DNA of 64,000 nt from Deltaproteobacteria bacterium (lineage in GTDB: Bacteria > Desulfobacterota > Syntrophorhabdia > Syntrophorhabdales > Syntrophorhabdaceae): positions 1 to 64,000 of the forward strand of contig JAKLET010000001.1 of NCBI GenBank assembly GCA_022711595.1, in the 5' to 3' direction. The notes below the pieces were generated by a model that had not been told where the DNA came from, searched no databases, and worked only from the letters and a program-made list of their open reading frames with translations. This document shows, one piece after another, positions 4,519 through 44,969 of the stretch. Both the position numbers and the translations under genes were made by a program. The first letter of the stretch is position 1. Each line of letters begins with the position of its first letter.

Positions 4519-4586
4519 GGTAATGGCGGAAGTGCATGGGAATCGAACCCACCCGCCAGCTCGTCACCGGCACACTGGTTTTGAAG
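4519..4586. repeat. Left attachment repeat (attL): displaced 3' part of tRNA-Sec
   Basis: These 68 bp match 44870-44937 exactly, in direct orientation. On the minus strand they read from the anticodon loop through the long variable arm, T-arm and acceptor 3' strand to CCA. The 5' half of the tRNA and the promoter are absent, so this copy is not a gene. It marks the far boundary of the element inserted in selC. Confidence 0.93.
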
Positions 4587-7247: not shown

Positions 7248-8273
7248 ATGCGTTCTCGGGGGATTGCAAACCAAAATATGAACTGCGATAACACAAAACT
7301 TATCGAACAATTTTTTGTGAATGCCCGCATTACCGACGAGCTTTGTGCTTCATCGATTGAAAAATACCGGGACTCCATCAAGAAATTCTTATCGGTTTGT
7401 GAGAATAAAACAATTGCCGACCTTGAGGACGATGATTTCCGATTATTTGTCCTCAGAATGAAGGACAACGGCGCGAGCAATTCCAGGATCAGCAATGTCA
7501 TTGCCGCCATGAAGAACCTAGTTGGTTATCTGCAAAAGGAACGGCTGATCGGCTTCAAGGTTAACTTGGATAAGATAAGGAAACCCAAGATACCACGAAG
7601 GGAAGTGAACCACTTGACGGTGGAGGAAGTTAAGATGCTTTTAGAAACGATAAAGAAAGATCTCGAAGACGGCGAAATGATCAGAAAGGTTAGGATGATG
7701 GCGCTTATCATGATTCTTCTTCAAACCGGAGCGCGAGTTGGCGAGGCACTCTCTATTAAAGTTAAAGATATTGACCGGATAAATATGGAGATCCCAATAA
7801 TAGGTAAGGGCTCAAAACCGAGAAGCCTCTACTTGTCGCCGTATACACTCTATTGGATCGACCGATATCTTTCGATCAGAAATAGCGACCAGGATTTATT
7901 ATTCTCGACGCTTGATGGAAAGTCAAAGTGGAGCCAAACCGATGTCGGCAGATCTTTTCGAAGATACCGGAACAGATCCGGAATTACCAAGCATTTTGTT
8001 CTTCACACCCTGAGACACACAACTGCCACCCAGCTTTCTGACAAAGGGGTCCCCATGAATTGCATTCAGCATATCCTGGGACATTCCCGGCTTGAAACGA
8101 CGATTAAATATTACATCGGAGCGGCGGAAAAAAGCAGGGCCAAAGAGGTTATGCGAGATGACTATTACAGGTTTATTCCGAAGGAAATGGTAGGTGAAAT
8201 ACAAAACAGGAAAACGGGTTTGGATTGTCAACACGAGCGAAACCATGGATACATAATGGTAAGGAAAAGCTGA
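7248..8273 (+). CDS. Tyrosine recombinase (phage-integrase family), first of a related pair
   Basis: 341 residues (about 331 if translation starts at the internal ATG at 7278; neither has a strong SD). The N-terminal SAM-like core-binding domain (SSIEKYRDSIKKFLSVCENKTIADL) is followed by a catalytic domain with R (QTGARVGEALSI), K (GKGSKPRSLYL), HxxR (HTLRHTTATQL), H (LGHSRLETT) and Y (IKYYIG), so all key residues are present. It lies just upstream of the methyltransferase/PLD cluster and is clearly related to the recombinase at 16720-17715, which faces it from the far side. Together they look like a mobility pair for the cluster. Confidence 0.9.
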   Translation: MRSRGIANQNMNCDNTKLIEQFFVNARITDELCASSIEKYRDSIKKFLSVCENKTIADLEDDDFRLFVLRMKDNGASNSRISNVIAAMKNLVGYLQKERLIGFKVNLDKIRKPKIPRREVNHLTVEEVKMLLETIKKDLEDGEMIRKVRMMALIMILLQTGARVGEALSIKVKDIDRINMEIPIIGKGSKPRSLYLSPYTLYWIDRYLSIRNSDQDLLFSTLDGKSKWSQTDVGRSFRRYRNRSGITKHFVLHTLRHTTATQLSDKGVPMNCIQHILGHSRLETTIKYYIGAAEKSRAKEVMRDDYYRFIPKEMVGEIQNRKTGLDCQHERNHGYIMVRKS

Positions 8274-8320: not shown

Positions 8321-10141
8321 ATGCGCTCCGAAAAACGTCCTAAGCCTAGTAAATTAGAGGGGTTATACTCTACTCCATTGCCAGCCTCGCGTAGCGGGTC
8401 CTTGTTTTCCGCATTTCCATACCCTACGAAAATTTCCCCAGAGTCAATTGCGGTCTTCATCGCCTCACACACCAAACCAGGTGATACGGTATTGGATGTT
8501 TTTGGGGGAAGTGGCACGACTGGTCTCGGGGCTATGTTATGCGAAAACCCTCCCTCAGAGGTAGTCGACCTTGCAAATATACTTAAAGCCCCTGTGCAAT
8601 GGGGTCCGCGTAATGCAATTATTTATGAGCTTTCAACATTGGGGGCGTTCGTGGCTCAGACTATGGCTGATCCTCCTGATCCTGCACGATTTCTTGTTGA
8701 AGCGGAGAAGCTAATTGCCCGATGCGAGGCCAGTACGGGAAACCTCTACGATGCAAAATCACCCAACGGGGAATGCGGGATTCTTCGTCATGCTATTTGG
8801 AGTGAAATAATTGAGTGTCCTCATTGCGGAGCGCACACACGCTTTTGGGACGCTGCAGTACGTTTTGATCCTCTTCGTTTGGAGGAATCATTTGATTGTT
8901 CCCGTTGCCGCAAAAACACACTGATTGCTGGGGCTCCCCGAAGCGACGAAATATTCTATGACCCCATTTTACGATCGTCCGAATTGCGTCGCCGCAGGGA
9001 GATCGTCATGATGTATGGTCGTAGCGGGAAATATAACTGGAGACGACCCGCGACTGAAGAAGATGCTGCGTTGGCCGAACATGCCATTGACTTCAAGATC
9101 CCTACCTCCGCACCCATCGCCTCCATTCCGTGGGGTGATCTGCACAGAAACGGTTATCATACGGGTATCACTCACGCTCATCACTTCTACACACCAAGAA
9201 ACTGGTTGGCGTTTGCCACCATCTGGGATGAAATAGAAAATGCACCGCGCCATATGCGCGATCCTTTAAGATTCCTAGCCCTCAGTTATAACGCCACTCA
9301 TGCGACACTAATGACGCGCGTCGTGGTAAAGAAAAGCAACCAAAGAGACTTTGTTTTAACTGGAGCACAGACTGGTGTTCTATATGTGAGCAGTTTACCC
9401 GTTGAGAAGAATCTATTCGAAGGGCTGAGGCGTAAGGCGAAGACAATCGGTCGCGCCTTCACTGTTCTAAACAATCGCGGGACTGTCCGAGTGGTCAATG
9501 CGAGCAGCCGTCAACTTGATCTCCAGGACAATTCTATTGATTATGTATTCACTGATCCTCCTTTCGGAGGGTTCATTCCTTATGCTGAGCTTAATTTTCT
9601 GAATGAAATCTGGCTTGGGCGTCTCACGAACCGTAGGGATGAGATCATAGTAAGCAATGCGCAGGTAAAATCAGTCGAGACTTACGGCTTGCTTATGAAG
9701 GAAGTTTTTGCCGAGATTTCACGGGTTCTAAAAGATGACGGAAAGGCTACTGTTGTATTCCATTCGGCAAAAGCTGATATCTGGCGCAGATTACAGGAAG
9801 CACATATTAAGGCAGGTCTGTGCGTGGAGTTTTCGAGTATCCTAGATAAACTTCAAGGCAGTTTTAAGCAAGTTAATTCTGGTGTTTCGGTCAGAGGTGA
9901 CCCTCTTCTCCTGCTCGCTAAATCTGCCATACCGGGAAGCTTAAAGAACAAGACTGCCGATACAGAAGCTATTTTAATGCAATTGTTGATGGCAGCCACA
10001 GAAGCTCCGGACAAGAAAGAACGTACTCCAGAAAGACTCTACTCTCGTTATGTAGCTCACTGTATGCAGCAGGGCCTTCCGATTTCAATTGACGCTGCTG
10101 GATTCTATAGTCGAGCGAGAGAAATATTGGGTTCTATATGA
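8321..10141 (+). CDS. Site-specific DNA methyltransferase (DPPF motif, zinc-ribbon insert)
   Basis: 606 residues; the ATG at 8321 follows AGGGAG. SAM-binding motif I (TVLDVFGGSGTTGLG) lies at about residues 54-68 and the catalytic TDPPF at about 405, so the two are separated by a long insert. The insert has a probable zinc ribbon (CPHC ... CSRC, about residues 165-200). DPPF with FxGxG places it among N6-adenine or N4-cytosine amino-methyltransferases. First gene of a four-gene rightward operon with another methyltransferase (4-bp overlap), a PLD nuclease and a third methyltransferase. Likely protects host DNA at the site cut by the partner nuclease. Confidence 0.85.
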   Translation: MRSEKRPKPSKLEGLYSTPLPASRSGSLFSAFPYPTKISPESIAVFIASHTKPGDTVLDVFGGSGTTGLGAMLCENPPSEVVDLANILKAPVQWGPRNAIIYELSTLGAFVAQTMADPPDPARFLVEAEKLIARCEASTGNLYDAKSPNGECGILRHAIWSEIIECPHCGAHTRFWDAAVRFDPLRLEESFDCSRCRKNTLIAGAPRSDEIFYDPILRSSELRRRREIVMMYGRSGKYNWRRPATEEDAALAEHAIDFKIPTSAPIASIPWGDLHRNGYHTGITHAHHFYTPRNWLAFATIWDEIENAPRHMRDPLRFLALSYNATHATLMTRVVVKKSNQRDFVLTGAQTGVLYVSSLPVEKNLFEGLRRKAKTIGRAFTVLNNRGTVRVVNASSRQLDLQDNSIDYVFTDPPFGGFIPYAELNFLNEIWLGRLTNRRDEIIVSNAQVKSVETYGLLMKEVFAEISRVLKDDGKATVVFHSAKADIWRRLQEAHIKAGLCVEFSSILDKLQGSFKQVNSGVSVRGDPLLLLAKSAIPGSLKNKTADTEAILMQLLMAATEAPDKKERTPERLYSRYVAHCMQQGLPISIDAAGFYSRAREILGSI

Positions 10142-12192
10142 AATCAGTCGTCGGCGCCAGCAGCTTGGGACTCGGATCGGGTAATATGGTTTCCCGAAAA
10201 AAACGGTTAGGCCAGTATTTTACGGGCGTAAAGCTAGCGAGTCTCCTAGCTAGGATATCCTTTGCAGAAAACGTAACCAGTGCAATTGATCCCATGGCGG
10301 GAGATGGTGATATGCTTGTTGCAGTCTCACGCTTATCGCCCGAAGCGCACCTTTACGGGATTGAGCTTGATAAAAACCATGCAGAATCGGCCAAACAACG
10401 TCTTGATCAAAATGCATGCATCATAACAGGAAACGTCTTTTCGTGGGAAACCTTAGGGGCTCTCCCTCGCAGAGTATTTGACCTTGTAATTACAAATCCA
10501 CCTTATGTACGCTATCAGTATACCTCATGCTGTGCCGAAGATGGTCTGCCGAATGCTGAAGAAGTACGAACCGGGCTATTGAACATAACCTATCAACTGC
10601 CGGACTTGAGTGCTGGCGACAGGAGAATCTTCGAAGTCTTGGTTCAGTCTTATAGTGGACTCTCCGACTTAGCAGTACCCTCATGGATTCTTTCGGCGAT
10701 GCTGGTCAAAGTGGGAGGGACTCTCGCGATGGTCGTGCCTGAATCATGGCTCACACGCGACTATGCCCACCCGATTCACTATCTTCTCATCAAACTTTTT
10801 CGACTACGGTGGGTAGTAGAAAACGAGGCACGAGATTGGTTTAACGACGCTCAAATTAAAACCTCTCTAATTGTCGCTGAGCGTATTCCCTGCCGGGATG
10901 ATTTGTCCACTTTGCGTCTCGGAGAAAATTTCTTGTGTGTTTCTTTGGGATGCGAGGCAAGTGACAATCGGAGCCCAGCAGGAGGCCTGTTTCCGGAGCA
11001 TGTTGATCCGGCTATTGTGTTACGTGAAAAAATGGTGAACATTTTGGCCGGAATATATGACCCTATCCCAGGTGCCGTTATTCTCAAGAGAGAATTAGCT
11101 GCCAAATTCGATGATCTTCTCATTGGTGCGGGCAATTCTTCATGGCTGCACCACTTAGAGCCTTGGGTTTGTTCTCAAAAGCAGACATCCAACATACGCA
11201 CGGCAAAGACACCACAGCCCTTACTGAATCTTCTGCCACTAGACACGCGCGGGAGGCTATGCTGTCTTTCTGAAATTGGAGTCAATGTTGGCCAAGGCCT
11301 GCGCACCGGCGCTAACATCTTTTTTTATTGCAACCTCATTGAAGCAGGTAACGAATTCAGCGTCGTAACATCGAACCTGATGACAGGTATTCCCATCCGT
11401 GTTCCCAACGAAGTTCTCATCCCTGTCTTGCACAGACAATCAGACGTGCATGACACCTACACTTTAGACGTAGCTATCCTCAGAAATCGACTCTTGATGC
11501 TAGATCGTTTCTCACCACCCGAGGCGGAAGCTCCAGAAGAAGGTAGGCGCCTAATGCCCGAAGATCTGTGTCGTTTAGTTTTGACTGCACAAATGACGCA
11601 CCCGGACCGAGGACCCATTCATAGCACGATACCAGAGTTATCCGCAGTTCGAACCAACGTGAGTGTCCCGAACTCAAAGAATGGATGGAGGGGCCGTCAC
11701 TGGTTTATGCTTCCGCCTCTGGCCAATCGTCATTGTCCTGATTTGTTCGTAGCGCGTATAAACAATTTGCACCCCAGAACCATACTTAATACCAATCGTG
11801 ACAGCGTAATAGACGCAAACTTCTCCACGATCTGGCTAGAATCAGATAATAAAGAGTTCAAGCCAACCGCTATTTTAGCCGTTCTGAATTCTAGTTGGTG
11901 TGTCGCAGCCATGGAGCTTCTCGGAGCAGTCATGGGCGGAGGTGCTCTGAAGCTTGAAGCTACTCATATTCGCAAACTACCAATTCCAAAATTCACAGCG
12001 GCGGATTGGTTACATTTAGCGGACCTTGGAAACAGACTTACTGTTTACCGGTCACCCGAGACGGTTTTGATGAAAATTGATCAAATAGTTGTAAACGCTT
12101 TGGTTGGTTCAAAAGCATCTTCGCAGACGCTCAACACACTACGACAAATCAATGAAACCTGCCTTCGTGCCCGCAAGAGGACGTGTGACTAG
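10138..12192 (+). CDS. Eco57I/TaqI-type N6-adenine DNA methyltransferase
   Basis: 684 residues. The ATG overlaps the previous stop (ATGA); a second ATG at 10186 is possible. KRLGQYFT near the N-terminus and motif I (IDPMAGDGDMLVAV, about residue 46) lead to the catalytic NPPYVRYQY (about residue 120), typical of gamma-class m6A enzymes. The C-terminal half ends with a TaqI-like specificity segment (GGGALKLEATHIRKLPIPKF). No nuclease domain was seen. Its pairing with a second, different methyltransferase and a PLD nuclease fits a system that modifies the two strands of an asymmetric site separately. Confidence 0.88.
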   Translation: MKSVVGASSLGLGSGNMVSRKKRLGQYFTGVKLASLLARISFAENVTSAIDPMAGDGDMLVAVSRLSPEAHLYGIELDKNHAESAKQRLDQNACIITGNVFSWETLGALPRRVFDLVITNPPYVRYQYTSCCAEDGLPNAEEVRTGLLNITYQLPDLSAGDRRIFEVLVQSYSGLSDLAVPSWILSAMLVKVGGTLAMVVPESWLTRDYAHPIHYLLIKLFRLRWVVENEARDWFNDAQIKTSLIVAERIPCRDDLSTLRLGENFLCVSLGCEASDNRSPAGGLFPEHVDPAIVLREKMVNILAGIYDPIPGAVILKRELAAKFDDLLIGAGNSSWLHHLEPWVCSQKQTSNIRTAKTPQPLLNLLPLDTRGRLCCLSEIGVNVGQGLRTGANIFFYCNLIEAGNEFSVVTSNLMTGIPIRVPNEVLIPVLHRQSDVHDTYTLDVAILRNRLLMLDRFSPPEAEAPEEGRRLMPEDLCRLVLTAQMTHPDRGPIHSTIPELSAVRTNVSVPNSKNGWRGRHWFMLPPLANRHCPDLFVARINNLHPRTILNTNRDSVIDANFSTIWLESDNKEFKPTAILAVLNSSWCVAAMELLGAVMGGGALKLEATHIRKLPIPKFTAADWLHLADLGNRLTVYRSPETVLMKIDQIVVNALVGSKASSQTLNTLRQINETCLRARKRTCD

Positions 12193-12207
12193 TTCAAGGA
12201 GACCGCA

Positions 12208-13287
12208 ATGTTGATTATCCAGACCGAAAGGTATCCTGCGGAAATAAGAAATGCGATTATCGACTCCCTAAAAAAGGACGTCAGCGAATTGAGAATTTGC
12301 AGCGCTTATATTACCCTGTCTGGTAGTAAGATTTTTCGCGATTGCTGTGACCGTTTTTTTACTAAATATGAATTTGAGAGTCTACCTAAAAAAGTCATCA
12401 CATCGTTTGACTATGGATTAACTGATCCCAACGCCATAAGGTTTTGGGGCAACCTTCCAGCGACCGAAATTCGGGTCGCAAGACCAGACATGATTATAAA
12501 GGGAAGCCTGACTCCTGATGCCGCGTTCCATCCGAAAATGTATGTTTTTTGTTTCCCAAACGGATTAGGCACCGTGCTAACCGGATCTGCAAATATGACA
12601 GGCCGTGGTCTGACAATAAATACGGAGACCGTCTGGTTACAACAAAATGTGCCTCGGAGTGAGATTGACCGAGTCTGGAATCTCGCTCTCCTTAACACCG
12701 AACCAGTCGATGACCTATTGCTGACTTCTTATGAGACGCTTCGAGGGAAAATACCACCGTCCCCGCATCATATCGATACCGGCCCGGTTTCAAAACCCGT
12801 TATCCCCGCCTCGCCGGTGCTTTCGGTATTTCCGGAAAGCATATCTACTGGTGTCCTCATGCCCGAAAGTTACGACCAGATGTGGGTTCAAGTGGCTCAA
12901 CTTCAAGGAGGCTCCGGAAATCAGCTCGAACTACCGCGCGGTGCTCATCGTTTTTTTGGTTATCAATTCAACAAATATGAAATCTCAAATGTCGTACATA
13001 TTGGGCAACCGGTTTTGGTGTCCGGTTCACACACCTGGACCGATAGGCCACTTACATGGCACGGAGACAATGGAATGGAACGAATTAACCTCCCCACGGC
13101 GGCTCAAGGTGGATTCAAGTACGATAACTCAGCCGTTCTCTTTCGACGTTTAAGGGGAAACCATTTTGAGATCGATGTTGTTGCCTGGGACTCTGATCTG
13201 GCAAGGGCGTGGTTGAACGCTTCGAAGAACATTTCTAAGTTATACCGACTTGGCTACAGAACAGATAGGATAGTTGGCTTTATTTAA
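12208..13287 (+). CDS. PLD-family restriction endonuclease (NgoFVII/BfiI-like)
   Basis: 359 residues from the ATG at 12208 behind AAGGAG. A phospholipase-D-type nuclease domain fills the N-terminal half, with one HKD-like motif (FHPKMYVF ... GSANMTGRG, about residues 107-137). One such motif per chain usually means a dimeric active site. The C-terminal half (ELPRGAHRFFGYQFNKYEI ...) is probably the DNA-recognition domain. BfiI, the known metal-independent PLD-type type IIS enzyme, has nearly the same length and layout. The position between methyltransferases supports a restriction role. Target sequence unknown. Confidence 0.8.
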   Translation: MLIIQTERYPAEIRNAIIDSLKKDVSELRICSAYITLSGSKIFRDCCDRFFTKYEFESLPKKVITSFDYGLTDPNAIRFWGNLPATEIRVARPDMIIKGSLTPDAAFHPKMYVFCFPNGLGTVLTGSANMTGRGLTINTETVWLQQNVPRSEIDRVWNLALLNTEPVDDLLLTSYETLRGKIPPSPHHIDTGPVSKPVIPASPVLSVFPESISTGVLMPESYDQMWVQVAQLQGGSGNQLELPRGAHRFFGYQFNKYEISNVVHIGQPVLVSGSHTWTDRPLTWHGDNGMERINLPTAAQGGFKYDNSAVLFRRLRGNHFEIDVVAWDSDLARAWLNASKNISKLYRLGYRTDRIVGFI

Positions 13288-13404
13288 AGACAGATTATTG
13301 CGATGAAGAGACCTGCTCCGTCTTGGAGACTAATCAACAATAGTATAGACTTAAAAGCTACATTTGGTTGTGAAGCAAATTATCCTACTCAAGGAGGCAT
13401 CATA

Positions 13405-16400
13405 GTGACATCGACGAATAACTTTTTCTTCGAACCTGAGCAAATTCAGGCGGCCACTGAATGCCTGCGGGAAGCCGTAACCCTTATAGGTCGAGGGGTA
13501 GTAGAAGATGTTATTCGACATAACTTCACTTCTCATATCTATCGGATGTTTCCGGATCGTCCTCGCTGGGCAAAACTCCACATAGAAGGCGGGGAGACCC
13601 GCGTCAGGTTTGCGCGCGGCGGAAAGGCTCACGGTGGATTCGTAGATAACCTCGTGGACTCAACTGCAATCGAATATGAGGCGAATCTGTCCTCTCGCGC
13701 CAAGTTTTCTTGCGGATACGGACAGGTTAAAGAATACTGCGCTGCCCTTCTGAATGAAGGCCGTACCCCTGACATAATCATAGGGGTTCTCTCTGACACG
13801 GTCCACTGGCGTGCATATCGCATCACTTCAATTTTGAAACCGCCCAGCGGCCCTATGGGCGGTGAGAACATTGAGCTTGAAGAGATCGACCATATTGATG
13901 GAAGCGCCGCCAGTGAAGCTGACGCAAAACACATTCTTGAGTTTCTCGTTCGCTATCTCGGACGTCTGGGTGCACGGCCCCTTTCGGCTTCGTCTATCTC
14001 GCGAGACCTCGGTTTCGATAGCATATTCTGTTTAGAACATATTGAGCAGCTGCGCGAACTAGTGGAGCGGGCATTTGAAACAAATCCGAGCTATGGTGCC
14101 CTTGTAGAGACTCTTTGGAGGCGATTCGTAAGCTTTGTCGGCGCTCCGGATAGAGCTGGCGCGTTTGAGCGCACCAGTTATGCTGACGAACTCTACCTCC
14201 TGACGCTTGCCAAGCTGGTCTGTGCCAATGCTCTTGAAAAAAGGACATTGTATGGAAACCATGTTCAGGTCGAGTCAATTCTAAAAGGCGACTATTTTAA
14301 ATCAAAGGGTTTTAATAACCTTGTGGAATATGATTACTTCGGGTGGTTACACCAATCACCTTTTCTCGATGACATTGTTGCTGTTGCCGACGAAATACAG
14401 GACGATTTACGAGCTTACGACTTTGGCAGTACCCCCGCCGAGGACCTGTTCGGACAGTTAATGGCTCAGCTTGCAAAACGCGCGCAACGTCTTCTGCTAG
14501 GGCAGGCATGGACCCCACGATGGCTGGCCCGTGCGCTGGTAAGCAGAGTCATCAGTAGTCTGCCCAAAAATGAGGAGCCTCGCTTGGTGGACATGTGCTG
14601 TGGATCGGGCGCTATGATTGTTGAAGCAGTGCTAGCGGCAAAGGAACTTATTTCTTCCAGCATCCCAGAAAAAGATCACGATGTCCGGGTAAGAGAGCTT
14701 GCGCTAACGATCACCGGCTTTGATATTGATCCTCTCGCCGTCATCTTGGCCAAAATCAGTTGGGTTCTCGCTGCCCGCGATTGGCTTGAACCATTGGGCA
14801 CTTTTTCAATTTCAATTCCGATCTATCATGCCGATTCCCTGTTTGCGATCACGCCCCTGTCTTCTACTCTTGGCCTTGAAGAAACGCAAGAATTCCATCG
14901 TTTACATATTGCTGGCACTTCTCTTGAATTGCCACGTTTTCTGATTTCGCCCGGTTTTCAAGGAGCATTTGATGCAATTATCGATAGATGTTACGAATTG
15001 GCCATGTCTGGAGGCGACAAGCCGATCCTTGTAAACGATTCGGTTCTCGAAACTGCCACGCGTTCGGCGCTGTCAAGCGCCATAGAAGAACCTAATACCG
15101 ACCAAATTGGATCGGCAAAAACATTTCTCAAGTCTTTTACCGAAACCGTGGATCAGCTTAATCGGGAAGGACGTAATGGAATTTGGGCCTTCATACTACG
15201 CAACAGCTATCGACCAGGAGTGGTTGCCGGACAATTCAATGGATTAGTTTCCAATCCTCCGTGGTTGGCGTTGAGCCGAATAGCGGACAATCCATACCGA
15301 GACGCTTTGCGTAAAAAAGCCGAGCAATTTGGTATAAAACCGCCCGGCCCTTCATTTTTACACATCGAAATGTCTACTATTTTCTTACTACATGCAGTGG
15401 ATCGGTATTTGAGACCCGGCGCAAAGGTTGGATGCATAGTCCCTGATTCTGTGCTCACCGGCTACAACCATAATCCGTTCCGTAATGCGGCCTACAGCGT
15501 TGCTGATAAGCCCGTCGACTTCAACGTCGAAGAAGTGTGGCGCATGCCTGAAACAACATTCAAGAATCGTGGAGCGGCCCTCATAGGATCCAAAAGTCCC
15601 GCAGCAATCCAGTCTTCCGTGCTTGTTGGGTTCCGAGTGGACGAATCTGGCGAAACTCCAGTGAGGATTCATCTTAACGTTCAAGGTAATCGTACCGCAT
15701 GGAGTGAACATGCGATGCCAGCAGGAACTGTAGGATTCTTTGATCCAGCAAGTTTCCGTCAAGGAGCTGATATCATGCCGCGTTCACTCTTCTTCCACGA
15801 GCTAACAGCGGTTCCTGCGGATCAAGGTCGAGCTCAGTGGTACGTAAAACCAATCGATCCTCAAATAAGCCCCCTAGCTTTCGCCATCAAAGACGCAAAG
15901 AAACAGAAGGATTTTCGCTTGATGCCATGCGTCCTTCCGGATGACCTGTTTTTTGATGTGCTCACTTCAAACTTGCTCACACCCTTCCACCTTGCCATCC
16001 CGCTACGTGCTTTGCTTCCAATCCGGAAAGGTGAGAACGAACTATGGGAACCCTTAGGCGATATGGAACTAATAGCTATGGGTTCGTCAGTAGCTAGCGC
16101 ATTTCGGCAAATTTGCTCCGCAACAGGTGGTCCTTCTGGGACTGTTGCTAATATTTGGACTCTCATCAATACTCGTGGTAAGCTCGTCCAGCAACAAATA
16201 GGACCAAGCGGTCACATTGTCTTGACGGGGACTAGCGGAGAAATCGTGTGCTCTGCATTCTGTAACGCAGATAGTCTTCGCGCTGGTCGACTTATAATAG
16301 ATCAGACACTGAACTGGGCTTGCGTTGAAACATTTGAAGAGGCCCTATATCTCACAGGATTGCTAAATAGCGAGGCAATTAATGACGTGATCCGCGACTT

Positions 16401-16689
16401 TCAGCCAGAAGGAGCTTTCGGAAGACGACACATTCACTCGTTGCCGTTCCGAGCCACTCCCCCGTTTGATCCGATGCAAGCATTACACCAGGATGTAGTT
16501 ACGCAAACTCGACTTCTTATAGATCAGTACTCGGATGCTATGGCCTCAGATTCAACATTAAGGGCTAGACTTGATCCCAACGTTGGAACATTGGCACAAA
16601 GAAGATTAGCAGTCAACCGAATTCTAAAAAAACTACCCGTGTATGCGGATTATGCTGGTGTGTGTAGAAATTTATACGGTGTATCATAG
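13405..16689 (+). CDS. Large N6-adenine methyltransferase with possible N-terminal nuclease domain
   Basis: 1094 residues from the GTG at 13405, chosen because AAGGAGG lies 8 nt upstream; an ATG at 13303 has no SD. Motif I (VDMCCGSGAMIVEA) is at about residue 395 and GFDIDPLAVILAKI follows. The catalytic NPPW (VSNPPWLALS) is near residue 615. The tail has a TaqI-like segment (EGAFGRRHIHSLPF). Near residues 80-110, GFVDNLVDSTAIEYEANL followed by GYGQVKEYCAALL resembles a PD-(D/E)XK core with the lysine replaced. If real, this is a type IIG-like fused nuclease-methylase. Last gene of the cluster, convergent with the second recombinase. Confidence 0.82.
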   Translation: MTSTNNFFFEPEQIQAATECLREAVTLIGRGVVEDVIRHNFTSHIYRMFPDRPRWAKLHIEGGETRVRFARGGKAHGGFVDNLVDSTAIEYEANLSSRAKFSCGYGQVKEYCAALLNEGRTPDIIIGVLSDTVHWRAYRITSILKPPSGPMGGENIELEEIDHIDGSAASEADAKHILEFLVRYLGRLGARPLSASSISRDLGFDSIFCLEHIEQLRELVERAFETNPSYGALVETLWRRFVSFVGAPDRAGAFERTSYADELYLLTLAKLVCANALEKRTLYGNHVQVESILKGDYFKSKGFNNLVEYDYFGWLHQSPFLDDIVAVADEIQDDLRAYDFGSTPAEDLFGQLMAQLAKRAQRLLLGQAWTPRWLARALVSRVISSLPKNEEPRLVDMCCGSGAMIVEAVLAAKELISSSIPEKDHDVRVRELALTITGFDIDPLAVILAKISWVLAARDWLEPLGTFSISIPIYHADSLFAITPLSSTLGLEETQEFHRLHIAGTSLELPRFLISPGFQGAFDAIIDRCYELAMSGGDKPILVNDSVLETATRSALSSAIEEPNTDQIGSAKTFLKSFTETVDQLNREGRNGIWAFILRNSYRPGVVAGQFNGLVSNPPWLALSRIADNPYRDALRKKAEQFGIKPPGPSFLHIEMSTIFLLHAVDRYLRPGAKVGCIVPDSVLTGYNHNPFRNAAYSVADKPVDFNVEEVWRMPETTFKNRGAALIGSKSPAAIQSSVLVGFRVDESGETPVRIHLNVQGNRTAWSEHAMPAGTVGFFDPASFRQGADIMPRSLFFHELTAVPADQGRAQWYVKPIDPQISPLAFAIKDAKKQKDFRLMPCVLPDDLFFDVLTSNLLTPFHLAIPLRALLPIRKGENELWEPLGDMELIAMGSSVASAFRQICSATGGPSGTVANIWTLINTRGKLVQQQIGPSGHIVLTGTSGEIVCSAFCNADSLRAGRLIIDQTLNWACVETFEEALYLTGLLNSEAINDVIRDFQPEGAFGRRHIHSLPFRATPPFDPMQALHQDVVTQTRLLIDQYSDAMASDSTLRARLDPNVGTLAQRRLAVNRILKKLPVYADYAGVCRNLYGVS

Positions 16690-16719: not shown

Positions 16720-17715
16720 TTAACTCACAAAACTCAAATACTGCCGGTGCGCCTTCTTGGCTTGTTCTTTGTCGACGCCAAGATAATACTTGCAGGTCGT
16801 ATCAAGTCTTTCGTGGCCGAGGATCTCCTTTACATGAACTATCGGGCAGCCGTTGAAAACAAGATTAGTGGCAACGGTATGCCGGAGAATGTGAGGGGTT
16901 AATTTCTTATCTATCCGGGCAAGTTTTCTGTGCCGGTCGAAGAATCTCCAGATATCATCGCGGTGAAGTCTCGCAATGGGCCTCTTTGTTACAAATACGG
17001 CTTCATGAGAATCATCGCGAGCTTCAAGATATCTTCGCAGCCAGTCCAGGGACCTTTGGGTGAAAAATACTCGCCTCTCTTTGTTGCCTTTCCCGACTAC
17101 TTTCGCCTCCTTTCGGTTCCAGTTTATGCTCTTGCGGTTAAGCGACAAAGTTTCCCCTATTCTCATTCCGGTTCCCAGAAGCACTTCGACAAGCACCCGG
17201 AAACGGAATCCGTTCCATGTTTTTACGTTTATGGTTTTGATAAATCGTTCTATTTCTTCCTTGGTTAAAAAGATTACCTCTCTTCTGTATCGTTTTGGAG
17301 GCCGAATTTGCTTCGGAGCTAAAGTGGAAAGCTTCAAAAAGTTCTGACAGTAGGATAGAAAGCTTCTCATAGCATAAACCACGCTTGAGATCCTGGCTTC
17401 GCTGGCTCCCCTATCCATCATAACTTTTTTAAGATGAAGGAAGTCCTGGACGTCAAGATCTTCGACGGGCTTATTCTCTATGTCGCGCATGAAGCATCGG
17501 ATGGAATCTCTGTATTTAATAATCGTCTGTGGAGAGAAGTTCAACTCGTATCTCGCATACTCTAGGAAGTCTTCCATGAGGTCGGCGATTGTCGGATTTC
17601 GCCGCGCGTCTATTCCCTGGTCCGTCCTGCTTTCTAGGGTGGTTTTTTGTTGGTTAAAGCGTGTGTCTGTGCCGTAGAATGCCTTTCTTTCTACGGCGCT
17701 TTTTTGGGTTTTCAT
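16720..17715 (-). CDS. Tyrosine recombinase, second of a related pair
   Basis: 331 residues from the ATG at 17715 (a TTG two codons upstream is possible; no good SD). The N-terminal core-binding domain (FSPQTIIKYRDSIRCFMRDIENKPVEDL) and catalytic residues R (GTGMRIGETLSL), K (GKGNKERRVFF), HxxR (HILRHTVATNL), H (LGHERLDTT) and Y (CKYYLG) are all present. It shares domain order and many motifs with the recombinase at 7248-8273, in inverted orientation around the methyltransferase/PLD cluster. An imperfect 11-6-11 palindrome lies immediately upstream of its start. Confidence 0.9.
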   Translation of the reverse strand: MKTQKSAVERKAFYGTDTRFNQQKTTLESRTDQGIDARRNPTIADLMEDFLEYARYELNFSPQTIIKYRDSIRCFMRDIENKPVEDLDVQDFLHLKKVMMDRGASEARISSVVYAMRSFLSYCQNFLKLSTLAPKQIRPPKRYRREVIFLTKEEIERFIKTINVKTWNGFRFRVLVEVLLGTGMRIGETLSLNRKSINWNRKEAKVVGKGNKERRVFFTQRSLDWLRRYLEARDDSHEAVFVTKRPIARLHRDDIWRFFDRHRKLARIDKKLTPHILRHTVATNLVFNGCPIVHVKEILGHERLDTTCKYYLGVDKEQAKKAHRQYLSFVS

Positions 17716-17721
17716 AAACAA

Positions 17722-23507: not shown

Positions 23508-25505
23508 TTATGCCATCCTCTTGAGCTTCTCACATAGTTGCGTAATGTTATTCACAACCGATTCTAAGATGGGCAATGTTTTCCCATCGGCATAAACTTT
23601 TTCAATAAAGCAGGCCGATCCTTCTATGTTCTTGAGAGCTTTGCTAGGCTCTTGGTATCCTAGCTCCGATGCAACCTTATCACACAGCGATAGGAAATAT
23701 TCTTCGCCCAATTCACTCTTCATCAGTCCTTCAAAATTCTCTTCGAAGACCGCCCATGTATTGTGAACCTGCGTTTCAGGAAAGTCTTCCGCGGCGACTC
23801 CTGCCAAGCGCAGATGGCAACGGTTTCGTCGTATTGTTTCTTTGTCGGTCTTGCCCTTGAATTTTATGTCCCCATCAAATACAAAGTAGGTTGGAATATT
23901 AAAACCCCTGAAAACGACTACGGGCCGGTCTATATTGTTCTTCCCTCCTGCCGGAACAATGGCGATTCCAAGCTGAGGCCAGTTTGCTTTTAAGATATCT
24001 TGGAGTCTCCACAATGCGCCTAACTCCGTCTGCCCTTCGACAACCACAACCGCATCGGCAAAGAAACCCTCATTAACAATGGTGTTCATCACCGACATGG
24101 CCCTGGCCCGGAAACTGTCTTCTGTGAACCTCGCAGGATCTTCTTCGCAGACCTCTGCGAGGTTTTTTGCAGCCTGTTCCAATGTGAAGGCGCGGACGGT
24201 AGTCTGAGGAATATCCGCTTCTTCCGACGGGCTCTTGCGGACCATCCTGATTCTATTGAAGCGAAAGAGATCAACGAAATATGGCGAATGAGTTGCATAG
24301 ATAACCTGATTTCTCGAACCTGAGCCAAGATCCGGCTTATCAATGAGTTGAAATAACAAGTCTGAAAAATATCGGCATCTGGAGGGATGAAGATATAGTT
24401 CAGGTTCTTCTATTGCCAAGATGAGATCAGGTCCTTGTGCTGTTTCCTTGACCTCTTGCTCATTGGCAGCGCCTTCTTCCGTTCCGCCCTCTGTTGGCGG
24501 CGGTGAAGGAGCGGTCATGGCGAGATGTTGAAGCAATGTGACAATCAAGGCTCTCTGTAGCCCATGTCCTTTATAGTTTATCTCACCTTCAAAATTGTCT
24601 TCTATCAAGGTAGCCTTTGCCGCTGGAAGCTGAACTTCCGGCGGTTTCACTTCATCCCATCTCAACCGCAACTGTGAGCCTGGCGAGAACTTCTCCAAGG
24701 TCTCAGAAATAGAATCTCCAAGTGCAGGCAGCTCAGTTAAGTTATCTGAACTGTAAAGCTTTTTAACTCTTTCCTCGAACTCTGACCTAAAATCCTGAAT
24801 GTCTTTCCGGGCATTGACCTTTCGCAAAACAATCATATCCAGCAATTGATATATTGCACCCTTCTTCCCGCTTGCTTCGTCAGACGCTTCCCTTACGGCA
24901 GGGACAAGAACATATTTGGTAAATTTGTCTAGTTTGCCGCCACCTATGCTACGCGGACCAAAGAACTGTTCCTCTCGCTCTATCGGTTGCATGAGATCGG
25001 GATGGTTTGTCTCGTATTCTGACATAAGGCGTTCAACGTCATCCGCCGTTTTAGCCTTCCCGCCTAGGCCTGCAAATGTTCCCGTTTCAAGCAATTCATT
25101 CCAGGCACTGATACGATCCCTCTTCCCAGTTATTACTCTTATCGACGCAAACTCGGGTATTTGCAGCGCAGCACCGTAATAGCGCTGAGACAATTTGCCG
25201 TTTTCAAAGAAGATTTTTTTGGAGACAATTAGTTTCTCGTCTTTTATGTAGTGGCCGAATTCTTCCTTTTCATCTCCGCGAAGACCACCGAAGGTTACCC
25301 TTATTTCTATAGGGACATTTACATCACGATCCCAGAAATCTTCTTGGGATATAGGGGCAGATACGTTGTAAAAGATGTCAATGGCGTAGAGGAAAGAAGA
25401 TTTTCCGCTTCCATTCCGTCCTACCAAAGCGGTGAGATCATCGCACTGGAGAACCTCATCTCTTATTGCCCTGAAATTTTTTACTTCGACGGTTTTTATA
25501 AGCAT
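23508..25505 (-). CDS. OLD-family ATP-dependent endonuclease (ABC ATPase + TOPRIM)
   Basis: 665 residues. N-terminal ABC ATPase: KTVEVKNFRAIRDE, Walker A GRNGSGKSS (about residue 30), ABC-signature-like region near GHGLQRALIV (about 325), Walker B LAIEEPELYLHPSR (about 360) and the H-loop ATHSPYFVDL. C-terminal TOPRIM: VVVVEGQTELGALW (about 490), VPAGGKNN and FVFDGDIKFKG. This is the class 1 OLD layout; no UvrD-like helicase partner (as in Gabija) lies beside it. A role in phage defence or DNA processing is likely but unproven. It lies upstream of the lexA promoter with a 200-bp gap. Confidence 0.88.
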   Translation of the reverse strand: MLIKTVEVKNFRAIRDEVLQCDDLTALVGRNGSGKSSFLYAIDIFYNVSAPISQEDFWDRDVNVPIEIRVTFGGLRGDEKEEFGHYIKDEKLIVSKKIFFENGKLSQRYYGAALQIPEFASIRVITGKRDRISAWNELLETGTFAGLGGKAKTADDVERLMSEYETNHPDLMQPIEREEQFFGPRSIGGGKLDKFTKYVLVPAVREASDEASGKKGAIYQLLDMIVLRKVNARKDIQDFRSEFEERVKKLYSSDNLTELPALGDSISETLEKFSPGSQLRLRWDEVKPPEVQLPAAKATLIEDNFEGEINYKGHGLQRALIVTLLQHLAMTAPSPPPTEGGTEEGAANEQEVKETAQGPDLILAIEEPELYLHPSRCRYFSDLLFQLIDKPDLGSGSRNQVIYATHSPYFVDLFRFNRIRMVRKSPSEEADIPQTTVRAFTLEQAAKNLAEVCEEDPARFTEDSFRARAMSVMNTIVNEGFFADAVVVVEGQTELGALWRLQDILKANWPQLGIAIVPAGGKNNIDRPVVVFRGFNIPTYFVFDGDIKFKGKTDKETIRRNRCHLRLAGVAAEDFPETQVHNTWAVFEENFEGLMKSELGEEYFLSLCDKVASELGYQEPSKALKNIEGSACFIEKVYADGKTLPILESVVNNITQLCEKLKRMA

Positions 25506-43756: not shown

Positions 43757-44081
43757 AGAAGTGGCGAAACTCTTAAAATGTTCGATTGAATTTGTATATA
43801 AAAACCGCCTTTTATTGGGCGGAATAAAGATAGGCAGATTGGTTCGTTTCCAACTGAATAAAATCAAGGAGGTGATAAGAAATGGCCGTTTACAGGCACA
43901 GGGACAAGTGGACCTACGACTTCGAGAAGAACGGGAAGAGATACCGCCAAGGAGGATTCCCGACCCGCAAGCAAGCGGTCGAGGGGGAGGCGAAAGCAAG
44001 GTCGACCACCCCAAAGATAAATATGGATTTCGCCAGACTCTGCACATCAAGGCTTCAGGAACTGGCTTCGAGGAGGACTAA
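43737..44081 (+). CDS. Excisionase-like HTH protein overlapping integrase
   Basis: 114 residues. The first ~55 residues form a MerR/excisionase-type winged helix (MELLTAEEVAKLLKCSIEFV ... GGIKIGRLVRFQLNKIKEVI). Such proteins direct integrase toward excision. The frame then runs on for 200 bp inside the integrase gene, giving a low-complexity basic and acidic tail that is probably not conserved. Directly upstream of and overlapping int, the usual xis-int order. Confidence 0.7.
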   Translation: MELLTAEEVAKLLKCSIEFVYKNRLLLGGIKIGRLVRFQLNKIKEVIRNGRLQAQGQVDLRLREEREEIPPRRIPDPQASGRGGGESKVDHPKDKYGFRQTLHIKASGTGFEED

Positions 44082-44874
44082 AGGACACTGGGAAAGAAAC
44101 GTCTTAATTTTTGAGAAACTGATGGATAAATGGGGACACAAGCGGGAAATAACGATGGTTGATGTCGAGGAACTGTTGGGAGAAATATCCCAGGAATCAA
44201 AACACAAAGCCAATCGCTATTTGGCGATGATTAAAGCTCTCTTCAGGCACGGGATTAAGCGGAAACTTGTCGATTACGACCCCACTATCGGAGTTGACCC
44301 TTACGGGATAAAGAAAGAACGCAAATACATTCCTCCAGAGGAAGATATGGAAAAGGTTTTAAACCTTGCCCCTAAAGAGTTTAAAGACTATCTCATTACC
44401 CTTCTGCATACTGCCGGAAGAATGAGGGAAATTAACAGACTCAAATGGGAAGATGTTAACCTGGACGAGGATTATTTAATCCTTCGCACCCGCAAAGCCA
44501 AGAACTCAGATGTGGTAGAAAGAAAAGTCCCACTCACCAAGACGCTTAAATCCATACTGGAAGCCCTTCCACAAAAGGGCGAGTATGTTTTTTCCCACCC
44601 AGACGGGACGAGATACGACAACCGGATTAAGATGATTCGTTCACTCTGCGAAAAGGCAAAGGTAAAAAGGTTTACTTTTCACAATTTAAGGCATTATTCA
44701 GCTTCTAAACTGGCAAATGCAGGAGTAGCAATAACCGACATACAGGAGATTTTAGGACACACCAGACCCACTACGACGGATAATTACTTGCAGGCAATTA
44801 AAGGAAGCGTCCGAAATGCGATTGATAAATTGGAAAATCCCCCACCAAAGCCCCCACCGCAAGATTTGGGGTAA
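43882..44874 (+). CDS. int: Tyrosine integrase of the selC island
   Basis: 330 residues from the ATG at 43882 behind AAGGAGGTGATAAGA. N-terminal AP2-like arm-binding domain (YRHRDKWTYDFEKNGKRYRQ), core-binding helices (about 60-160), then catalytic residues R (HTAGRMREINRLKWED), K (TRKAKNSDVVERKVPL), HxxR (HNLRHYSASKL), H (LGHTRPTTT) and Y (DNYLQ). All are intact. The gene ends exactly where the tRNA-Sec CCA begins, and its TAA stop (44872-44874) is inside the 68-bp att repeat, so the gene stays intact after excision. It is distinct from the two internal recombinases. Confidence 0.93.
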   Translation: MAVYRHRDKWTYDFEKNGKRYRQGGFPTRKQAVEGEAKARSTTPKINMDFARLCTSRLQELASRRTKGHWERNVLIFEKLMDKWGHKREITMVDVEELLGEISQESKHKANRYLAMIKALFRHGIKRKLVDYDPTIGVDPYGIKKERKYIPPEEDMEKVLNLAPKEFKDYLITLLHTAGRMREINRLKWEDVNLDEDYLILRTRKAKNSDVVERKVPLTKTLKSILEALPQKGEYVFSHPDGTRYDNRIKMIRSLCEKAKVKRFTFHNLRHYSASKLANAGVAITDIQEILGHTRPTTTDNYLQAIKGSVRNAIDKLENPPPKPPPQDLG

Positions 44875-44937
44875 TGGCGGAAGTGCATGGGAATCGAACC
44901 CACCCGCCAGCTCGTCACCGGCACACTGGTTTTGAAG
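44870..44937. repeat. Right attachment repeat (attR) within tRNA-Sec
   Basis: Perfect direct copy of 4519-4586. It includes the integrase stop codon and the tRNA-Sec sequence from CCA back to the anticodon loop, so integration restores a complete tRNA. Confidence 0.93.
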
Positions 44938-44969
44938 ACCAGGAGGCCCACCAGGACCCCTCCACTTCC
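44875..44969 (-). tRNA. selC: tRNA-Sec (anticodon TCA)
   Basis: 95 nt including encoded CCA. 5' GGAAGTGG pairs with 3' GCACTTCC (7 of 8 positions). The anticodon stem CTGGT/ACCAG encloses CTTCAAA with anticodon TCA. A long variable arm and the T-arm GTGGG-TTCGATT-CCCAT follow. Length and layout match bacterial selenocysteine tRNAs. The host therefore decodes UGA as selenocysteine. The gene serves as the island's integration site. Confidence 0.95.

Follow-up and report, generated by a model that had tools for sequence, protein, structure and literature searches.

A conserved three-methyltransferase operon with an accessory BfiI-like nuclease: a probable Type IIG-centred restriction-modification module on an integrative element

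How could three different DNA methyltransferases and a PLD nuclease serve one operon that encodes no helicase or ATPase? Three such methyltransferases without a motor in one conserved operon are unusual, and no description of a set of this kind was found in the literature searched. The question is raised by a window of 64,000 nucleotides (the whole stretch of DNA analysed, positions 1 to 64,000 of contig JAKLET010000001.1, from a deltaproteobacterium of the Syntrophorhabdaceae), in which four tightly packed open reading frames on the plus strand, together spanning 8321-16689, form one operon:

8321-10141, plus strand: gene 1, a 606-aa stand-alone DNA methyltransferase, PglXI-like (Pfam, PADLOC, homologues)
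10138-12192, plus strand: gene 2, a 684-aa stand-alone gamma-class adenine methyltransferase (Pfam, PDB relative, alignment)
12208-13287, plus strand: gene 3, a 359-aa BfiI-like endonuclease, PLD plus B3-like, accessory (Foldseek, HMM against PDB)
12529-12594, plus strand: PLD active-site segment of gene 3, H108-x-K110 ... G126-S127-A-N129 (invariant in gene 3 alignments)
13303-16689, plus strand: gene 4, a 1128-aa Type IIG-like restriction-modification enzyme (PADLOC, N-terminal model, alignments)
13594-13725, plus strand: nuclease-motif segment of gene 4, G-x-E98...D115...I-E124-Y-E126...Q141-V (alignment of nine core loci and outgroups)

The junctions are close throughout: an ATGA overlap joins genes 1 and 2, gene 3 has an AAGGAG ribosome-binding site and starts 15 bp past gene 2, and gene 4 starts 15 bp past gene 3. 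GC content stays between 0.465 and 0.488 across the four genes, and a search with gene 3 found a single copy of the operon in the source genome. The initial annotation had described a four-gene operon with three methyltransferases of different kinds and no motor gene, and all of this holds. The coordinates and common strand were confirmed by an ORF check, Pfam places the three enzymes in N6_N4_Mtase (gene 1), Eco57I/N6_Mtase (gene 2) and N6_Mtase (gene 4), no helicase or ATPase gene lies in the operon, and a PADLOC scan of the neighbours revealed no BREX or DISARM motor. The same annotation gave the gene 4 product as a methyltransferase of 1094 aa; the assignment stands, and the length reflects another start codon, 1128 aa being counted from the first ATG. 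Since homologues start near residue 41-50, translation may in fact begin at an internal codon.

Whether these genes belong together can be judged from their company elsewhere. Genes 1, 2 and 4 occur in the same order at nine loci, namely the window, a Hymenobacter plasmid, six IMG/VR contigs and one genome, which between them represent plasmid, phage/island and chromosome contigs. A tblastn search of plasmids found the collinear set on NZ_CP095047.1 of Hymenobacter cellulosilyticus (Bacteroidota; locus L016), at identities of 51-56% for gene 1, 39% for gene 2 and 48% for gene 4. Scans of IMG/VR added L039, L040 and L041, an alignment scan added L042, L043 and L044, each with genes 1-2-4 in order (the contig end of L041 falls inside gene 1), and a genome search added the ninth collinear locus, G456:C27 (L063). 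Viral contigs scanned with gene 1 or gene 3 as a single sequence gave no match. With gene order kept in nine loci, chance adjacency is untenable: what is conserved as a unit is the trio of methyltransferase genes, and the possibility that they do not co-occur, which the initial annotation had allowed for, can be set aside.

In 395 genomes of the window's phylum, a gene 4 profile matched two distant relatives and, apart from them, nothing but the source genome, and genes 1, 2 and 3 joined as one query found only distant gene 1 homologues (26-38% identity), mostly within open frames of 820-1200 aa; the three-methyltransferase set was not found in this sample apart from the window's own genome. 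At L041:6104-9258 the cassette adjoins phage capsid and portal genes, which indicates that a phage or prophage carries it; a large serine recombinase lies upstream in L042-L044; and L063 holds a Mob_Pre-type protein.

In the window itself, the cassette is bracketed by recombinases and sits within a larger element:

4519-4586, no strand: copy of a 68-bp att-like repeat, left element end
7248-8273, plus strand: tyrosine recombinase left of the cassette (Phage_integrase, 1.4e-33)
16720-17721, minus strand: tyrosine recombinase right of the cassette, convergent (Phage_integrase, 1.7e-38)
43882-44874, plus strand: integrase adjoining the tRNA-Sec gene, the likely integrase of the ~40-kb element (PHROG integrase, 7.8e-54)
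44870-44937, no strand: 68-bp att-like direct repeat, an exact copy of 4519-4586, overlapping the 3' part of tRNA-Sec
44875-44969, minus strand: tRNA-Sec gene

The perfect 68-bp tRNA-Sec repeat and the abutting integrase identify the cassette as cargo of an integrative element of ~40.4 kb whose insertion site is the selenocysteine tRNA gene. The two tyrosine recombinases, 38% identical to each other, bracket exactly the four genes and may have mobilised the cassette independently of that element; a search for terminal inverted repeats flanking the cassette gave weak 72% matches only. Between 18210 and 33693 the same element carries a cluster of defence genes that includes AbiEii-like, OLD-like ATPase/TOPRIM and HNH proteins, a LexA/S24-like repressor, metallo-beta-lactamase-fold defence candidates (PADLOC PDC-M48B), an ApeA/HEPN protein (PDC-S58) and a protein of 1265 aa unmatched in Pfam.

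The two stand-alone methyltransferases are of different classes. Gene 1 combines DVFGGSG and DPPF motifs with a Cys zinc-ribbon-like insert, and matches Pfam N6_N4_Mtase at 7.7e-15 and the PADLOC model PglXI at 9.8e-113 over residues 23-597; its homologues at the other core loci are 46-49% identical. The Hymenobacter copy (L016:8089-9865) is split into two annotated ORFs by a frame change, either a sequencing error or a real inactivation. Gene 2 has M.BseCI as a PDB sequence relative (1.3e-5), and NPPYVRYQ is invariant in its alignment. Both motifs, DPPF in gene 1 and NPPY in gene 2, are kept across homologues.

What, then, is the third methyltransferase for? The initial annotation had left it unexplained, and a Type IIG-like reading is now available. 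Gene 4 matches the PADLOC model REase_MTase_IIG at 2.2e-45, and Type IIG models are matched by eight of the eight gene 4 members scanned. A central gamma methyltransferase carries DMCCGSG and NPPW, the latter kept across homologues except at L063. There the gene (L063:255-3401) reads SNTPWL rather than SNPPWL, which suggests that methylation is altered or lost in that copy. The N-terminal region, modelled mostly at pLDDT 75-95 over residues 1-180, follows an alpha-beta-beta-beta-alpha-beta order, and E98, D115, E124, E126 and Q141 are conserved in all nine core loci, with the G of G-x-E98 shifted in L063. The E-Y-E places a glutamate at the position of the classical lysine, as in BamHI, which has E-x-E and not E-x-K. 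Neither Foldseek against the PDB (best E 0.16) nor Pfam returned a significant match for the N-terminus; the conserved residues and the predicted topology fit a probable PD-(D/E)XK-like nuclease domain, and the C-terminal region is presumed to recognise the target. Gene 4 looks like a Type IIG-like restriction-modification enzyme with a probable nuclease, a methyltransferase and a presumed recognition region in one chain. The core members L042 and L044 have lost the tyrosine of the Q-x3-Y motif, so that, with the NTPW of L063, some copies need not be fully active.

Gene 3 resembles a restriction endonuclease of another kind. It matches Pfam PLDc_2 and RE_NgoFVII weakly, both under cut-off, and a 45%-identical homologue passes the RE_NgoFVII cut-off (28.3 against 23.8 bits). 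H108, K110, S127 and N129 are kept across homologues, with one HxK motif per chain. A gene 3 profile run against PDB sequences found SauUSI (3.4e-8) and R.NgoVII (4rct, 0.0084), the latter matching at the active site, and a structure model searched with Foldseek found full-length BfiI (2c1l, 3.6e-7) as its best match, followed by SauUSI, and also the isolated B3 domain of BfiI (3zi5, E 0.028, probability 0.97). These results support the two-domain layout of BfiI, an N-terminal PLD domain and a C-terminal B3-like domain, the B3 assignment deriving from fold matches to a poor model (mean pLDDT 50), and they bear out the earlier label of a BfiI/NgoFVII-like PLD nuclease. BfiI needs no metal ion and works as a dimer that has a single catalytic site (PMC4081073), and by analogy the gene 3 protein may do likewise.

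Unlike genes 1, 2 and 4, the PLD gene is accessory to the core. It is present in three of the eight core loci where its presence can be judged: in the window it separates gene 2 from gene 4, and in the near-identical contigs L042 and L044 a 45%-identical copy directly follows gene 4 and overlaps its end. It is absent from Hymenobacter, L039, L040, L041 and L043, which rules out a fixed four-gene system; L063 has none between genes 2 and 4, and its contig ends 254 bp beyond gene 4, so absence there is not judgeable. The conserved four-gene neighbourhood raised at the outset therefore survives for genes 1, 2 and 4, but not for the PLD gene with its two positions. In the gene 4 tree the window stands apart from L042-L044, a joint group being rejected by an AU test (p 0.027); the gene 2 tree arranges the lineages in another way, with an AU test against window plus Hymenobacter at p 0.021. 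Two separate acquisitions of the PLD gene, or rearrangement with recombination, could both produce this pattern.

Outside the core loci, the PLD family recurrently adjoins Type IIG-like enzymes. On three Methylobacterium/Methylorubrum plasmids, full-length relatives at 33-35% identity lie directly 3' of an MmeI-like Type IIG protein, and in Methylocystis iwaonis such a relative is convergent with a gene-4-like protein. More distant relatives follow DrmMI in a DISARM locus (L006) and, in Methylosinus (L007), an MmeI-like protein, with a DEAD-box neighbour. The partners are thus MmeI-like (L002, L003, L005, L007), PDLC03630-type (L004) or DrmMI (L006). This pairing too is optional, since plasmid records with MmeI-like relatives number 452 and those with relatives of the Methylorubrum PLD protein only five. 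The MmeI-like enzymes of L002, L003 and L005 are ~98% identical and the adjoining PLD proteins only ~78%, which implies that evolution or recombination is faster in the PLD gene than in the gene beside it. On the Methylosinus trichosporium plasmid (L007:9221-16213), an MmeI-like protein whose nuclease motif is degenerate, the PLD protein, a DEAD-box helicase and a GIY-YIG nuclease stand in a row that is possibly an ATP-dependent restriction system.

How might these parts work together? The cassette is probably a mobile Type II restriction-modification module, in which a IIG core is joined by two helper methyltransferases and, as an accessory, by a BfiI-like endonuclease, the whole being cargo of the ~40-kb element; we hold this reading with moderate confidence. 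The interpretation refines the first reading of the locus. Gene 4 would recognise an asymmetric site, mark one strand and cut unmarked DNA, and gene 1, gene 2 or both would mark the other strand or otherwise protect host DNA. Type IIA enzymes are often accompanied by one or two methyltransferases that modify a single strand apiece, and a Type IIG enzyme may or may not be accompanied by separate methyltransferases (PMC4081073). That two methyltransferases may protect both strands of an asymmetric site, as the initial annotation had suggested, fits Type IIA/IIS practice (PMC4081073). Gene 3 would act as a second restriction enzyme, metal- and ATP-independent, with a recognition domain of its own, and one of the resident methyltransferases could protect its site, which would give three methyltransferases a use.

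Could the PLD protein instead be the main nuclease? Where the PLD gene is present, the PD-(D/E)XK domain of gene 4 might be weakened or dead, leaving gene 4 to recognise and methylate and the BfiI-like protein to cut. The residue after the E-x-E motif of gene 4 (position 127) invites this idea: it is K or R in most of the loci that lack a PLD gene (L016, L039, L040, L041) and also in L063, and mostly K in solitary relatives. In the loci with a PLD gene it is A (the window) or S (L042/L044). The separation of these two lineages by the gene 4 AU test makes the losses look independent, and the MmeI-like partner of the PLD relative in Methylosinus (L007) has no recognisable D-ExK motif. However, the association is only partly borne out by the alignments of core loci and relatives. 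L043 has P at this position yet carries no PLD gene, a solitary homologue (L058) has N, the four acidic residues of gene 4 are invariant in all loci, and the motifs are intact in the PLD-linked enzymes of Methylobacterium (EQK) and Methylocystis iwaonis (EWEK). With two or three lineages only, and a gene 2 tree that groups them otherwise, such a transfer of the cutting role appears unlikely. We regard as similarly doubtful the broader proposal of a modular lineage, in which a BfiI-like PLD-B3 endonuclease was repeatedly recruited beside various Type IIG-type enzymes (MmeI-like, DrmMI and the present core) and sometimes replaced a decayed PD-(D/E)XK domain; if true, it would mean that recognition with modification on one side and cleavage on the other are exchanged as separate modules.

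Gene 3 might also have nothing to do with the core, or even conflict with it, for instance as a modification-dependent, Type IV-like nuclease that resembles the SauUSI PLD domain and attacks DNA marked by rival methyltransferases. Its top PDB relative by HMM is SauUSI, an ATP-dependent restriction endonuclease, and its absence from five loci and variable position would suit a loose attachment. Against this, it lies within the operon and overlaps gene 4 in L042/L044, its family is paired with IIG-like enzymes in several lineages, and its layout is that of BfiI, which cuts unmodified DNA, with no ATPase domain; on balance an unrelated role is improbable. A motor-less relative of BREX or DISARM, with genes 1 and 4 as epigenetic marking subunits of a non-nucleolytic phage exclusion, is very improbable: the PglXI match of gene 1 to a BREX type 3 methyltransferase model and a gene 3 relative within a DISARM locus speak for it, but PglZ, BrxC, BrxHII, DrmA and DrmB are unmatched among the scanned ORFs around the cassette, no such genes are annotated beside the Hymenobacter copy, and Type IIG models suit gene 4 much better than PglX does.

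If genes 1 and 2 protect against the nucleases of genes 4 and 3, as the favoured Type IIG-centred reading would have it, the operon would let one test cleanly, in a natural system, how a single restriction module keeps several activities of marking and cutting in balance. The recurrent pairing of BfiI-like nucleases with Type IIG-like enzymes suggests that cutting domains can be added to or swapped between restriction systems, and new recognition specificities could have practical use.

The operon can be compared with several known systems. The PglXI of BREX type 3 aligns with nearly the whole length of gene 1, although ~110 N-terminal and ~220 C-terminal profile positions are missing from gene 1, and its companions were not found either: PADLOC matched neither PglZ nor BrxC/PglY among the ORFs scanned between 7 and 36 kb (some small ORFs went unscanned), and BrxHII and BrxA were likewise not found near the cassette. 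For DISARM, Pfam and PADLOC left the DrmA helicase and DrmB (DUF1998) unmatched near the cassette. From the Mad1-8 set of MADS, genes 1, 2 and 4 show generic mad2 methyltransferase similarity only; a generic mad3 ATPase match falls in the OLD-like gene at 23508-25505 (PADLOC). With their core genes unmatched in these scans, membership in BREX, DISARM or MADS is rejected. NgoAVII and CglI share a PLD endonuclease with gene 3, but these systems have a cognate DEAD-family ATPase, and CglI requires H.CglI and NTP (PMC5737866). By ORF and Pfam analysis, no DEAD-family ATPase gene for such a pair lies in or adjoining the operon. BfiI/BmrI, the PLD Type IIS enzymes, are like gene 3 in length (~358-360 aa), in the single HxK motif and in joining PLD to a B3-like domain. 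Identity to BfiI in the fold alignment is 13%, and gene 3 sits inside a IIG operon, BfiI being described as an independent restriction endonuclease. A further parallel is with Type IIA/IIG systems of the Eco57I/MmeI type, in which a single-chain restriction-modification-type protein likewise bears gamma methyltransferase motifs and stand-alone methyltransferases stand alongside with no ATPase. Unlike these, the operon described here pairs stand-alone methyltransferases from two classes, one of them the PglXI-like zinc-ribbon type, and combines a fixed three-gene order with an optional BfiI-like endonuclease.
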